Shown: one piece after another, positions 30,140-55,758 of the stretch
Layout of the letters: every line of letters begins with the position of its first letter
Numbering within the stretch: the first letter of the stretch is position 1
Source: Veillonella sp. VA137
GTDB taxonomy: Bacteria; Bacillota; Negativicutes; Veillonellales; Veillonellaceae
NCBI RefSeq assembly: GCF_003992015.1
Contig: NZ_RQVK01000003.1
Location: 1-64,000, forward strand
Reading direction: 5' to 3'
DNA length: 64,000 nt
Position numbers and translations under genes: made by a program
The notes under the pieces: model-generated
The model's database searches: none
Seen by the model: the letters and a program-made list of their open reading frames with translations, nothing else
What the model was told of the DNA's origin: nothing

Positions 30140-30345
30140 TTAGCGCAAAACCATCTCTACCCGTCTCTCGCGGATCTAACGACATGCTTCTTACGGCAGT
30201 TCTTCTGACTCAGGATCTTCGCTACGCTTCGCCTTCCCAGTTTCCCAGTGACGCTACATGAAGTTTCGCTCCCCTTTACAGCGGCGGGACCGTGTTGGCT
30301 TTTCACCAAGCTTCCCTATTAAGCCTCGCGGCACCAGTAAGGCGA
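30140..30345 (-). promoter_or_regulatory. Cobalamin riboswitch
   Basis: On the minus strand the B12-element consensus is read in order: GGTGCC, AATAGGGAA, GGTGAAAAGCC, CACGGTCCCGCCGCTGTAA, GGGAGCG, CACTGGGAA, CTGGGAAGGC, and GATCCTGAGTCAG before AACTGCCG. The aptamer core is about 30188-30345; the rest is expression platform leading to the terminator at 30084-30116. It binds adenosylcobalamin or a related cobalamin and presumably reduces mutAB-meaB transcription when B12 is plentiful. Confidence 0.95.
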
Positions 30346-30363
30346 ATATAAAGTTATACCTTG

Positions 30364-48695: not shown

Positions 48696-49901
48696 TTATA
48701 TTGTTTTTTTATTTCGTATGACACTCATAGAAAAGCCTAATAGTTGCCACAAGACCATACTTACTTGCTGGCTATATAAAGCATGATCAAAGAGACCGCT
48801 TACCAAAACAACTACGGTGATTAAGGTCATACTATAGCGATATGGAATGGAAAGGCACTTTTGTTTTTGTACATTTCTACTATGCCCTAGCAATATTGCT
48901 AACAACAAGCACAAGGAAATGGGGCCCGTTTCTGCAGCCACTTGCAAATACAAATTATGAGCATGATAGATTATGACCGTTGGATCTTGGATAAAGTAAT
49001 TATAGTCTGGATAGGTCATCCAAAACGCATCCCAACCAATACCAAAGACAGGAAAATCTTCTATCATGTACATAGTACTATCCCACAATGCCCACCGAAG
49101 CATGACCGATGTATCTTGCCCACTAAAAAGGGACCATAATCGACTGGATACTTCCCCATGGTAAAAGAATAACACTAACGGCACTACTAGAAGAGCATAT
49201 AATAATCTTCGCTCTACACAAATACCTGCTACAAATACAACAATAGCCAAACTAAGCCACATGCCTCTCGAATAGGTAAGAACAAGGCATAATAGCATAA
49301 ATACGACAGCTAATGCCATGTAAGCAAAGCGTTTCCAATCTTTAGCTTTCAATACCTGTATCGTTCCTAATCCACCAATGGACAGGACAAACAATAAATA
49401 CTCACCCAATAAATTAGGGTTCTGTAACGTCCCATACATGCGCCGCATGAGTCCTGGAAAATAAACATTATCCACCCATTCATGAATATGTTCCGGAGTC
49501 ATATAAAAATACTGATATCCCGCACCTAAGCACACGAGAACTCCAGTCATACAAAATAAGGACAAAAACGTTTTCTGCCGTCTTTCAGTATCTATATAAT
49601 ATGTCATCAACCAATAGATACTGCCATACATACCTATATGGTAGAACCAGCTCATAGCCGACCATTGTATATTCATGGAATTAACGATAGAAATTCCTGT
49701 CCAAAGAATAAATCCCAGAACTGCCCATTGTAGCCAATGTAAGGCCCCAGAAAATCGTTGCCTATCAAATAGCAATGCCAATATCCCCGCCACAAGGACA
49801 AGAATATTGCCTCCTATAGGTAATAAGGGAATACACACCGTTGCTCCATAGAGTAGATAGACTATCCACTGATCTATAGATAGTCTACGTAGGGCATCCA
49901 T
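48696..49901 (-). CDS. O-antigen ligase/polymerase-like membrane protein (Wzy_C family)
   Basis: 401 residues with about 11 membrane segments and one long extracytoplasmic loop holding YGTLQNPNLLGEYLL and IGWDAFWMTYPDY...IIYHAHNLYLQVAAETG. The HNLYLQ...ETG signature is that of the O-antigen ligase (WaaL)/polymerase group, which join lipid-linked sugar chains; this fits a diderm such as Veillonella. I prefer the start at 49901, whose ATG overlaps the folC stop (TAATG), over the ATG 27 bases upstream. Acceptor and sugar unknown. Confidence 0.88.
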   Translation of the reverse strand: MDALRRLSIDQWIVYLLYGATVCIPLLPIGGNILVLVAGILALLFDRQRFSGALHWLQWAVLGFILWTGISIVNSMNIQWSAMSWFYHIGMYGSIYWLMTYYIDTERRQKTFLSLFCMTGVLVCLGAGYQYFYMTPEHIHEWVDNVYFPGLMRRMYGTLQNPNLLGEYLLFVLSIGGLGTIQVLKAKDWKRFAYMALAVVFMLLCLVLTYSRGMWLSLAIVVFVAGICVERRLLYALLVVPLVLFFYHGEVSSRLWSLFSGQDTSVMLRWALWDSTMYMIEDFPVFGIGWDAFWMTYPDYNYFIQDPTVIIYHAHNLYLQVAAETGPISLCLLLAILLGHSRNVQKQKCLSIPYRYSMTLITVVVLVSGLFDHALYSQQVSMVLWQLLGFSMSVIRNKKTI

Positions 49902-51193
49902 TAGTGCCCCATTTCTTGGGCGAGCCATTGTTGCACATCACCAAGAATGTATAAAGATCCCACCACAGCGATGATATCGCCTTCCTTAGTTAGTTTCATA
50001 GCATGGTCTAAGCCCTCTTGGATTGTCTCCATAGGATCTGCTTGGACGGGCATTTGTTTTGCCAACTGTTGCGGTGCAATGCCTCGTGGTGTTGGCGCTG
50101 GCACCGTAATCACTCGATCTTTTTGTCCTACTAAATAGCTGACCATAGTGGATACATCTTTATCTTCCAAAATTGATAAAACCACAGTTTTCGCTTTGTC
50201 TGGATACAGTTCATTGAAAGTCATAGAAAAAGCTTCTGCTCCGCTCGCATTATGAGCCCCATCTAAAATGATTGTCCTGCCATGGACTTTGAAGGTTTCA
50301 AACCGTCCTGGCCAAGCAGCACGAGCCAATCCTTCACGGTACGTTTCTTCACTCACTGCTGGTTCTTTGTCTTTCAAAATTTGCAATACCCTTGCTGCAC
50401 ACGCTAAATTTAGGGCTTGATGGATACCATGCATGGATGTGAAGAGCATGTCTTTATGGCCTGCTTTATCTTTTACTGTAATCATTTGTCCCATCGCCAT
50501 CGCACTGCGACTATCGATGGTAAAGTCCTCATTGAACACATGATAGGTCACGCCTAGAGAACGAGCCGTTTCCTTGATCACATCAAGAGCGCTCCCTTGA
50601 GCTGCTGTTACAAGAGGCACTCCTTGTTTGATGATACCTGCTTTATGGCGGGCAATCTCCTCTACGGTATCTCCACAGTACGCTTGATGGTCAATGGTCA
50701 CGTTTGTAATTACTGCCACTTCTGGAGTAATGACATTCGTAGAGTCTAGTAATCCACCTAAGCCTACTTCGATAACGGCATAGTCCACACCTTGTTCTTG
50801 GAAGAATAGGAACGCCGCTGCTGTTAAGATTTCAAATTGTGTGGGTGCTTCCACACCGCGATCCATAATAGTTTTCACAGCATGGCTTACACGTTCAATC
50901 AAATCAGCAAAGGCCTCTTCTGTAATATAGGCCGTATTCACACGCATACGTTCTGTATAGGATTGGAGATGCGGGGACGTAAATGTCCCCACTCGAAGCC
51001 CGCTCATATACAAGCCATAGGTAATATACGTAGAAACAGACCCTTTCCCATTTGTTCCTGTGACATGTATGGTTTTATATGTATGTTGTGGATTTCCTAG
51101 CTCTTCTAATAGCGCTGTAATCCGTTCTAATCCTGGATGAATCCCAAAGGAGGCTACCTCTTCTAGGTAGGCAATCGCTTCCGTATAATTCAT
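49901..51193 (-). CDS. folC: Folylpolyglutamate synthase / dihydrofolate synthase
   Basis: 430 residues, Mur-ligase family. ATP site HVTGTNGKGSVSTYIT at about residues 43-58, FTSPHL, then VEVGLGGLLDSTNVI and the C-terminal DGAHNASGAEAF. It adds glutamates to folates and possibly makes dihydrofolate. It follows valS by 11 bp, so T-box readthrough probably also feeds it; the O-antigen-ligase-like gene overlaps its stop. Confidence 0.96.
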   Translation of the reverse strand: MNYTEAIAYLEEVASFGIHPGLERITALLEELGNPQHTYKTIHVTGTNGKGSVSTYITYGLYMSGLRVGTFTSPHLQSYTERMRVNTAYITEEAFADLIERVSHAVKTIMDRGVEAPTQFEILTAAAFLFFQEQGVDYAVIEVGLGGLLDSTNVITPEVAVITNVTIDHQAYCGDTVEEIARHKAGIIKQGVPLVTAAQGSALDVIKETARSLGVTYHVFNEDFTIDSRSAMAMGQMITVKDKAGHKDMLFTSMHGIHQALNLACAARVLQILKDKEPAVSEETYREGLARAAWPGRFETFKVHGRTIILDGAHNASGAEAFSMTFNELYPDKAKTVVLSILEDKDVSTMVSYLVGQKDRVITVPAPTPRGIAPQQLAKQMPVQADPMETIQEGLDHAMKLTKEGDIIAVVGSLYILGDVQQWLAQEMGH

Positions 51194-51204
51194 GATGGAT
51201 CTCC

Positions 51205-53865
51205 TTATGCTAATGTTTTTAAGAACTCTTCACGTTCGTTCAAGGCTTGTTGTTTTTGTTTGTATTCTTCCAATTTTTCTTTTTCTTTCGCCACTACCGC
51301 TTCAGGGGCTTTCGCTAAGAATCCTTGGTTGTTCAATTTGCCTTCTAAACGAGCGATTTCTTTCAATACTGTGGCTTGTTCTTTGGCGATACGTTCTTTT
51401 TCTTTGTCTGCGTCAATTAAATCTTTCAACAACAAGTACACTTCTAAGCCGTTCACCACAGTTACTGTAGCATTTTCTGGTTTTGGCGCATCTGGTGAAA
51501 GTACCGTCACTTTTTCAGCCCAACCTAAGGTATGGAAGTAATCACCATGGGTTTCTAAGATACCTTTCAACTCTTCTGTAGCAGGCACTAAGATAACTTC
51601 AGAACGTTTACCCATTGGTACATTCATTTCTGCACGCATGTTACGAATACCTTTGATACCGTCCATCATCACATTCATATATGCTGCTGCAGAGCTGAAC
51701 CCTTCCATGGATAATGTACTTGGCCATGGAGCGACCATGATGCTCTCTCCTTCATGTGGCAAATGTTGCCAAATATGTTCTGTTACGAATGGCATGAATG
51801 GGTGCAATAATTCCATCATATGACGAAGGATGGATACCAATAGGTATTGAGCTGTTTGACGGTCACGGCCACCTTCTTTGTTGTACAAACGAGGTTTCGC
51901 TAATTCAATGTACCAGTCGCAGTACGTATTCCAAATGAAATCGTATACAGCGCTCGCTGCTTCCCCTAATTCAAATTTATCAAGGTTATTCGTAATATTA
52001 GTCACTGTTTTATTGTATTCTTCTAGAATCCATTTATCCGCCAATGTGTAGTCTTCTGCGCTTGGTACAAAGCTTTCATCAAAGCCTTCTAAATTCATCA
52101 ATACGAATTTGGATGCATTCCAGATTTTGTTGGCAAAATTACGATTTGCTTCCACACGTTCCATGTAGAAACGCATATCGTTCCCTGGCGTATTCCCTGT
52201 TACCAAGGTAAAGCGCAACGCATCGGCACCGTATTCTTCAATCACTTCTAATGGATTGATACCATTGCCCAAGGATTTACTCATTTTACGACCTTGGCTA
52301 TCACGTACTAAACCATGAATGAAGACGTGTTTGAAAGGAATTTCTTCTTTAAATTCTAAGCCCATGAAAATCATACGAGCTACCCAGAAGAAGATGATGT
52401 CGTAGCCTGTTACCATAACGCTTGTAGGATACCAATGTTTCACTTCCTCTGTATTGTCAGGCCAACCCATTGTGGCAAATGGCCATAACGCAGAGCTGAA
52501 CCATGTATCTAATACGTCTGGATCTTGTTCTACTTTGCCATGGCAATGTGGACATTCTGTCAACGTTTCTGCTGTTACGATGGTTTCTCCACAATCTTGG
52601 CAGTACCAAGCTGGGATACGATGTCCCCACCACAATTGACGAGAAATACACCAATCACGAATAGATTCTAACCAGTTAGTATACGTTTTTGTAAAACGTT
52701 CTGGTACAAATTCAATAGATTTATCACGTACCACTTCTAAGGCAGGTTTTGCCAATGGTTCCATAGATACAAACCATTGTTTCGACACCATAGGTTCTAC
52801 TGTCGTGTTACAACGGGAACAATGGCCTACACTATGACCATGTTCTTCCACTTTTTCTAATAAACCTTGCGCCTCTAATTCTGCTACTACTTGTTTACGT
52901 GCTAATTCACGAGGCATGTTCACAAAGTGTCCTGCTCCTGCATTCATAGTGCCATCTGGATTCATCACCACGATGCTTTCTAAATTATGGCGTTGTCCCA
53001 TTTCAAAGTCATTAGGGTCATGGGCTGGCGTGATTTTTACGCAACCAGTACCGAACGATTGATCTACATATTCATCAGCAATGATTGGGATATGACGATT
53101 TACGAATGGAAGCAATAATTCTTTACCTACTAAATGGGCATAGCGTTCATCATTAGGGTTCACCGCTACAGCTACGTCACCAAACATCGTTTCAGGGCGT
53201 GTGGTAGCTACGGTTAAGAATGTATCTTCCTCCCCGATAACAGGGTATTTAATATGCCACAAATGACCATTTTCATCTTCGTGTTCTACTTCGATATCGG
53301 ATAAGGCTGTCAAACAATTAGGGCACCAGTTAGTGATGCGTTCTCCGCGATAGATTAAACCTTTTTCGTATAATTCTACGAATACTTTTAATACCGCTTC
53401 ATGGTAACCTTCATCCAAAGTAAAACGCTCTCTCGTCCAATCGCAAGAAGCGCCTAAACTACGGATTTGTTTTACGATGGTGCTACCGTACTCTTGTTTC
53501 CACTCCCATACACGTTTTAAGAACTCTTCACGACCTAAATCATGACGAGATTTTCCCTCTGTTTTCATGATATTTTCTTCTACTTTTACTTGCGTTGCAA
53601 TCCCTGCATGGTCTGTACCAGGCATCCACAACACATTGTAACCTTGCATACGTTTCGTACGAATCAAAATATCTTGCAAGGTGTTATCAAGGGCATGACC
53701 CATGTGCAATTGACCTGTTACATTTGGTGGTGGTAACACAATACTGAACGGCTCTTTATTCGTATCTACTTCCTCGTGAAAGTACCCTTTCTCTTCCCAA
53801 TATGTGTACCATTGTTGTTCAATCTCTTTTGGATTGTACGTTGTGAGATTTTTATATTCCTTCAT
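51205..53865 (-). CDS. valS: Valyl-tRNA synthetase
   Basis: 886 residues, class I synthetase. HIGH motif as HMGHALD after PPPNVTGQL (about residue 47-60); KMSKS as [11 protein letters not shown] (about residue 525); editing domain between; C-terminal coiled coil ([24 protein letters not shown], quoted as [10 protein letters not shown] ... ARLEGKL). RBS AGGAGG before the ATG. Its T-box leader lies 1.6 kb upstream, with the AlbA_2 gene in between. Confidence 0.98.
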
Positions 53866-53891
53866 ATGTCCTCCTAATTTGGATATAATAA

Positions 53892-55445
53892 TTATTTTAT
53901 TAATTGGTACTTTCTACCTTTATTATTACCAATTCCTTTGATTTTACCATCTTTCACTAATTCCTGTAATAAATATCTTGCTCTCGACGCTTGTAACCCC
54001 AACAATTCCGCGATATCCTTCGCCTTAAAAAATAGATTCATTTCAGCAAAAATAAGTATTTGCTTTTTTTGTTCATTTTTTATCGTTGTTTTATCGCCGG
54101 TCTTGACCGCCGGTCTTATATCGCCACTATCAGAACTATTTCCTTTAACATCAGGATTGATAGCCCCTTTATCGCCGTTCTCATCATCTTTTATCGCCGG
54201 TCTTATATCGCCACCATCAGAACTATTTTCCTTACTATCAAGATTGATAGCCCCTTTATCGCCGTTTTTTACTGCCGTTCTTTTATCATATTCATAGTTC
54301 AAATTTTTAAGTACAGCAAAAAAAGAACTTTGAGTGGAACGAAACTCTGGACGTAAAGATGCATTATATTCTTCTTGTGACTCGTAGATATCCAACACTT
54401 TTTTTAGCCCACTGCCCCGTCGCTCCATTAAGTGCATTCTACTAAATACATCAGCAATCATAGGATTTCTACGTTTAGATGATATATTCGATATGTTTAA
54501 CTCTTGAATAAAAGTTCCATCCATCATCCCCCCAGGAGAATATATTTCTAATCTATCATCATACATATCAATATGAACTTCTGAACCTAATTCACCATAA
54601 TCACGATGAATCAAAGCATTTACCAATACTTCTTGTATTGCTCGCTCTGGATAATCAGGATATTCCACGCGATATGTATCAACTTTTTTCCAACGTTTTT
54701 TAGAATTGGTTTTTATAAAGTCTATACTATTTTGTAACAATAACAAAAGACTACCTTCAAACTCTTTATCATCAAGAGCCTCTTCTCTACCATTCGTTTT
54801 ATCAAGGCCATTCCATCTTGTGGCGAATACCCTTGACTGACGAACTAATGGTTCATCAGCTAATAACGCTCCTGCATTCGTAAGATAATGATCACTACTT
54901 ACTAACCCAAAAGATAATAAATCATTGTCTCGCAAATCATTCCCTGTTCGCTGAAAGTATACAGATTTTAACTTAGAAAATGCAGCTCGTTCTATCGAAA
55001 TAGTTGTTGATATGGTGTCAAATGTTTTATTCATACCTCGTAAAATAAGGCTATTTAATTGCACGCTGCTGGCTGCAACGCTTTCATTTCCAACTCGTAT
55101 AAAGGCAAGCCTATTTCCACTATCTACATAATAATAGGGAGTTTCGTTTCCCTCATACACCTGTAACATAATAAGATCTTTATTATCATTCCTGATGACT
55201 TCTAAATTAACTCTAGGTGTAGGGTCTAGCTTGGTCTTAATTATCGCGCTAATGAACTCAGAATCACCTTTTGCATCATCTAATCCTACGAGCCTATCTT
55301 CATCATCGATTCCCCAAATAAGCACCCCGCCTTTTGAATTGGCAAATGCACTAACAGATTTTAGCCAACTTTTAGGTTTATGCCGTTCGAGCTGTACTTT
55401 TTTATCGTAAGAACTAGTTTCTCCGATATAGTTTACTAAATCCAT
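53892..55445 (-). CDS. AlbA_2 (Schlafen-like) DNA-binding regulator between T-box and valS
   Basis: 517 residues. N-terminal AlbA_2 domain (about 10-130: [19 protein letters not shown], then a second strand region), a central GHKL-like ATP-binding C-terminal domain ([29 protein letters not shown]), a low-complexity insert with two 29-residue tandem repeats (about 388-446), and a C-terminal winged helix ([20 protein letters not shown]). Such proteins are putative transcription regulators or defence-associated. The gene starts 22 bp after the T-box terminator and ends 26 bp before valS, so it is transcribed under valine-tRNA control. Confidence 0.88.
54109..54282. repeat. Two tandem 87-bp repeats inside the AlbA_2 gene
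   Basis: Units 54109-54195 and 54196-54282, both starting GCCGGTCTTATATCGCCAC and both ending near GATAGCCCCTTTATCGCC. Each encodes 29 residues including NGDKGAIN and SSDxGDIRPA. The length keeps the frame, so copy number can vary. Confidence 0.8.
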
Positions 55446-55466
55446 AGTTTTCCCTCTTCAAAACAT

Positions 55467-55503
55467 CAAAAAGACCCCTTCGTCCATTAGGACGAAAGGG
55501 TCT
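55467..55503 (-). terminator. T-box terminator
   Basis: GACCC(T)TTCGTCC with GGACGAA(G)GGGTC, loop TAAT, then TTTTT on the minus strand; competes with the antiterminator. Confidence 0.9.
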
Positions 55504-55700
55504 ATACTTCCGCGGTACCACCTAGATTATTGCCGTAGCAATCACTCACTATCGTTAACGCTGATCAGCGGGCACACTTACTCTAGTTCACCATGCCAAC
55601 TCCGAGGCTACCCTCTTCCTACTACATACATTGTTCCACCAACCCAATGCTCTCTGTGATGCGTTCAAAAGATTTTTCCTCTTCTTAGTTATTATCTATA
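55467..55700 (-). promoter_or_regulatory. T-box leader (valine)
   Basis: On the minus strand: stem I with GTTGGTGGAAC, a specifier region GGGTAGCCTCGGAG in which GUA (Val) falls at the expected place, the T-box sequence AATCTAGGTGGTACCGCGG (complement of about 55508-55530), and a terminator GACCCTTTCGTCC...GGACGAAGGGGTC followed by TTTTT (55467-55503). Uncharged tRNA-Val stabilises the antiterminator and allows transcription of AlbA_2-valS-folC. The specifier call is by pattern only. Confidence 0.92.
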
Positions 55701-55707
55701 TAGTATT

Positions 55708-55737
55708 AGTATACGTGAAAGTATGCAACACCGTCAA
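55708..55737 (-). promoter_or_regulatory. Promoter of the T-box operon
   Basis: Minus strand -35 TTGACG (55732-55737), 18-bp spacer, -10 TATACT (55708-55713). Confidence 0.7.
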
Positions 55738-55758
55738 TATATGAAGCTACAAAACTAT

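Follow-up and report, generated by a model that had tools for sequence, protein, structure and literature searches.

A candidate Schlafen-type RNase gene between a tRNA-Val T-box leader and valS in Veillonella

The window analysed here, the first 64,000 nucleotides of contig NZ_RQVK01000003.1 of Veillonella sp. VA137, carries on its minus strand a promoter, a T-box leader and a terminator, followed in that order by an open reading frame (ORF) of 517 amino acids, valS and folC. The features of this locus are:

55708..55737, minus strand: sigma-70-type promoter of the T-box operon, TTGACG-18-TATACT, matching the consensus at 10 of 12 positions
55485..55695, minus strand: T-box leader RNA of the tRNA-Val type (Rfam RF00230)
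55609..55611, minus strand: specifier codon GUA (Val), from the Rfam alignment and its match to tRNA-Val(UAC)
55511..55523, minus strand: T-box motif AGGUGGUACCGCG, whose UGGU pairs with the tRNA end ACCA
55472..55503, minus strand: intrinsic terminator of the T-box, with a stem of 14 pairs
53892..55445, minus strand: gene for the 517-aa SLFN_AlbA_2 / HATPase_c_4 / winged-helix protein (type A cassette), from ORF and domain scan
51205..53865, minus strand: valS, valyl-tRNA synthetase, with its own Shine-Dalgarno sequence at 53870-53875
49901..51193, minus strand: folC-like Mur ligase family gene, next in the operon, from ORF and domain scan

An earlier note on this DNA had described the leader as complete, with promoter, GUA specifier, T-box sequence and terminator, and all four elements were found. 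The RF00230 covariance model scores 121.5 bits in the window against a cutoff of 93 (E 2e-26), and its alignment places GUA at the specifier. The genomic copies of tRNA-Val(UAC) carry a 3' end A-CCA that pairs with the T-box UGGU, and specifier codon and tRNA end both fit this one tRNA. The leader is kept in all six Veillonella genomes compared, and the stretch that holds the specifier, GGGUAGCC, is invariant in 8 species. The five other T-boxes of the genome all precede their usual genes: four of them directly precede thrS, ileS, glyQ and trpE, with no gene intervening, and the fifth precedes leuA across approximately 460 bp containing no ORF of at least 120 aa. The T-box targets known so far are overwhelmingly genes of amino acid synthesis, amino acid transport and tRNA charging. 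In the leuA leader (contig C3 of the same genome, 68031-71231), a second strong terminator-like hairpin lies some 280 nt further on, before leuA, suggesting that two attenuators may be arranged in series. The window also holds a cobalamin riboswitch on the minus strand (30178-30354, 92.2 bits).

The spacing of these elements supports a location of the AlbA_2 gene inside the predicted T-box/valS transcription unit. The terminator stem and the ATG of the AlbA_2 gene are separated by 26 nt, which leaves no room for a private promoter between terminator and ORF, and a further 26 nt separate its stop codon from valS, with no terminator found in that gap. A candidate internal promoter before valS (ATTACA-18-TAAAAT, 53970-53941) belongs to a class of matches no commoner than chance. 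The proposed order, with the AlbA_2 gene between a Val T-box and valS/folC, was thus borne out, and the same layout recurs in two further species, which excludes both a chance ORF and an assembly artefact. Two arrangements that would have spoken against it, a separate promoter and terminator for the AlbA_2 gene and a second T-box before valS, were both looked for; neither was found, the covariance search returning a single T-box at the valS locus.

Among 80 other Negativicutes, a T-box motif is present within 2.6 kb upstream of valS in 72, and in 67 of these it lies within approximately 190 nt. The statement that T-boxes normally abut their synthetase therefore holds as a rule, but not as a universal one: Val T-box operons of Streptococcus with a hypothetical first gene (spr0489, str0474) were described in 2008 by Wels et al. 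(PMC2494555). In one genus (g4, 7 genomes) the motif sits 73-81 nt from valS, and most genomes of another (g3) have no valS T-box. The sole clear intervening gene among the 72 was found in a distant Negativicutes genome (G116), where the T-box motif lies approximately 600 nt before valS and the intervening ORF, of approximately 155 aa, is GNAT acetyltransferase-like by eye.

The 517-aa protein is composed of three predicted domains and a linker, encoded as follows:

55071..55421, minus strand: Schlafen AlbA_2 domain, with catalytic-type residues E9, D14 and D48, from alignment and structures
54309..54587, minus strand: HATPase_c_4 domain (PF13749), residues 287-379 (E 1.8e-26)
54108..54266, minus strand: 87-bp repeat, 1.8 copies, encoding a disordered linker (pLDDT below 50 at residues 392-452)
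53928..54068, minus strand: C-terminal winged helix, residues 460-506, from a FaeA profile match and the predicted fold

The SLFN_AlbA_2 domain (PF04326) is recognized at 78.2 bits against a cutoff of 25.3 (E 1e-21), and the AlphaFold2 model has a mean pLDDT of 80.6, with residues 392-452 forming the disordered linker. The 87-bp repeat has the same copy number in three species, in which the linker sequence varies more strongly than the other parts of the protein. Over the full length, DIP2311 (3lmm) is the closest match in fold, with Schlafen domains next. The old annotation as a RecG ATP-dependent DNA helicase was rejected, as the Pfam scan detects no helicase domain and only HATPase_c_4, a family whose Pfam description mentions RecG. 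A Z-DNA-binding role for the winged helix was likewise rejected: its fold is Zalpha-like (TM 0.8-0.9 over approximately 62 residues), but the Asn, Tyr and Pro-Trp residues that are key in Zalpha are absent, and the domain was treated as a generic winged helix. The PADLOC matches, to pAgo fusions and PDC candidate proteins, were all partial.

To characterize residue conservation, an alignment of 34 relatives was compared with solved structures. E9, D14 and D48 align with E218, E223 and D261 of the 5yd0 sequence, positions that a constant offset of 13 converts to E205, E210 and D248 of rat SLFN13, the three positions on which tRNA cleavage by that enzyme depends (PMC5862951). The SLFN13 carboxylate triad is matched, with D14 replacing the usual glutamate; across the 34 relatives E9 never varies, position 14 is always D or E, and D48 is retained in 33. 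The residues of the ATPase motifs (E272, N276, H280, R281, S303-G306 and G344-G346) are likewise without variation, and conservation is lowest in the winged helix.

These observations bear on the earlier suggestion that the protein is a regulator of DNA or stress, according to which AlbA_2 and winged helix would bind DNA or RNA and regulate their own operon or stress genes, with no role as a nuclease. The presence of a C-terminal winged helix fits such a function, as does the long-standing annotation of AlbA_2 as DNA-binding (PMC6299218), but the retention of a nuclease-type triad in 34 distant relatives, the weak conservation of the winged helix and the lack of conserved target genes near family members make it improbable. 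We regard the protein instead as a candidate Schlafen-type RNase of the defence kind, which is the likelier assignment given the aligned SLFN13 triad and a report on bacterial Schlafens (PMC12839542). That report describes Schlafen-HATPase-wHTH proteins as effectors that are widespread and linked to BREX, and ascribes an anti-phage role to bacterial Schlafens; the RNases it presents share the domain order of the Veillonella protein: Schlafen/AlbA_2, minimal histidine-kinase ATPase, winged helix. They differ in context. PglZ, a BREX core gene, is encoded in none of the six genus genomes, and the Veillonella gene occurs singly, in an essential operon headed by a T-box; given that the genus is without PglZ, its product would be a stand-alone effector. 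Of the structurally solved counterparts, mammalian SLFN13 (PDB 5yd0, PMC5862951) aligns through a single AlbA_2 lobe and its three catalytic carboxylates; it joins two lobes in one chain and is devoid of the bacterial HATPase and winged helix, and the Veillonella protein is a putative RNase. DIP2311 of Corynebacterium diphtheriae (PDB 3lmm) has the same domain set and is the best full-length match in both fold and sequence, although at approximately 16% identity, and is itself uncharacterised, with no known T-box context.

The occupancy of the T-box/valS interval was compared across six genomes of six Veillonella species (G000-G005, G000 being the window genome). The type A gene is present at the same site in three of them (G000, G001 and G003; 93-96% identical), and G002 carries in exactly the same interval a 461-aa AlbA_2/HATPase/DeoR-HTH protein, type B, that is 29% identical to A. 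In G004 and G005 the site is empty, with T-box and valS 98 and 124 nt apart; searches of these two empty sites for AlbA_2 remnants found none, the only similarity beyond brief chance matches being the shared ribosome-binding end. The flanks are conserved across all three allele types, A and B alleles have the same 3' end before valS, AAAATAATTATTATATCCAAAATAGGAGG, and the T-box of G002 is also preceded by a promoter at the same site.

A tree inferred from valS and folC groups the four occupied species in one clade (100% support), in which the B-bearing G002 nests among the A-bearing species (96%). The simplest history has A gained first and later swapped for B; it is also possible that A was regained by exchange. 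Synonymous divergence is 0.19-0.26 for A, 0.31-0.42 for valS and 0.43-0.66 for folC, with bootstrap ranges that separate A from valS in two of three pairs and from folC in all three, and these lower values suggest that type A has been exchanged between species. The earlier note had considered a recent insertion. The empty sites of the two sister species uphold the insertion, but it is not recent at the level of strains: it goes back to the common ancestor of the four-species clade or earlier. Since then the gene appears to have passed between species, and one species now has B at the site. The gene could in principle be a neutral passenger that landed after the terminator by chance, is tolerated since valS has a ribosome-binding site of its own, and is heading to loss. 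Two species with an empty site, in a sample of few genomes, would agree with this, yet the type A frames are intact in three species with a dN/dS of 0.08-0.17, which points to selection for function, and the gene was replaced by another AlbA_2 gene rather than decaying, so that we deem a passenger very improbable.

The six genus genomes encode 12 AlbA_2 domains, four of which, of two unrelated types, lie in the T-box/valS interval. If insertion were random over approximately 2,000 genes, the arrival of two types in one interval by accident would be unlikely; part of this coincidence could stem from flank-mediated exchange of a gene that was already docked. Elsewhere in the genus, contig C7 of G001 holds, near the contig end and away from valS (1064-2262), a broken relative of the G002 AlbA_2 gene, 68% identical to it over residues 1-236. 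The stretch upstream of a yfbR-like gene also varies between species, as G004 has two genes there that fit no clear Pfam family, and G002 and G003 have an additional large ORF.

Relatives of the type A protein in GTDB genomes are 43-62% identical to it and occur in Bacillota, Bacteroidota and Spirochaetota. No T-box motif was detected within 700 nt upstream of these relatives at loci outside Veillonella, nor within 1,500 nt upstream of nine further Negativicutes relatives, indicating that the T-box link is a local event of Veillonella. Clustering of 244 neighbouring ORFs for a conserved partner gene gave no cluster present in more than two loci, and judged by such neighbourhoods the family appears elsewhere as a mobile solo gene. 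Relatives were also found in uncultured phage-labelled fragments (up to 54% identity) and in five viral contigs; the search for a close plasmid relative returned none, the one plasmid match being 45% identical.

Taken together, these data lead us to favour, with reasonable though far from full confidence, a promoterless, exchangeable Schlafen-type defence gene docked in the essential, tRNA-Val-controlled valS operon, in the interval that extends from the Val T-box terminator to the valS ribosome-binding site. From this architecture, AlbA_2 gene, valS and folC would be co-transcribed from the T-box promoter. With charged tRNA-Val, most transcripts would stop at 55472, keeping the Schlafen-like protein and ValS basal; by the known T-box mechanism, uncharged tRNA-Val would pair with GUA and with the UGGU bulge, causing read-through, and the Schlafen-like protein and valS would rise together. 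The protein would most likely be a stand-alone defence effector, a putative AlbA_2 RNase of the SLFN13 kind that its HATPase and winged-helix parts, and not its expression level, would restrain and trigger. The docking site, which two unrelated AlbA_2 genes appear to have used, would supply a reliable, moderate promoter and tie loss of the gene to an essential operon. We find this mechanism plausible, and we infer co-transcription, induction by uncharged tRNA-Val, RNase activity and a defence role.

The same arrangement might alternatively reflect a dedicated coupling, in which the T-box raises the Schlafen-like RNase when valine runs short or a phage imposes a translation crisis, so that tRNA or rRNA is cut and growth or infection arrested. 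The concentration of AlbA_2 domains, of two unrelated types, in this interval is in keeping with such a role, as are tRNA cleavage by related Schlafens (PMC5862951), the T-box kept intact in all occupied species and the lack of any other promoter for the A gene. However, a T-box responds to uncharged tRNA that is intact and carries its CCA end, and tRNA cut by the enzyme would therefore give no feedback; valS would be induced simultaneously, relieving the stress; and the link to a T-box is confined to one clade, the relatives checked elsewhere being without it. We thus consider a dedicated coupling unlikely, and passive docking better supported than a dedicated starvation response. Its specific form, a tRNA-sensing riboswitch that gates a Schlafen-type tRNA/rRNA nuclease, with uncharged tRNA-Val raising ValS together with a translation-arresting defence enzyme, seems slightly more doubtful still; if true, the operon would link charging status to antiviral or dormancy control, and such effectors would have a docking site in the T-box/valS interval.

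Genes lying between a Val T-box and valS have a precedent (PMC2494555). The Streptococcus genes spr0489 and str0474 likewise follow a Val T-box and are of undescribed function, annotated as Val-tRNA-ligase related; they have not been described as Schlafen-type, whereas the Veillonella interval is filled by exchangeable AlbA_2 genes in some species and empty in their sisters. New here are the Schlafen-type nature of the cargo and the set of empty, A and B alleles at one site, and none of the literature we searched linked T-boxes to phage defence. T-box control of a probable Schlafen defence RNase would bring tRNA sensing and a tRNA/rRNA-cutting family together in a single transcript, and the empty, A-type and B-type alleles of sister species provide a natural comparison for asking whether synthetase operons may act as docking sites for defence genes.
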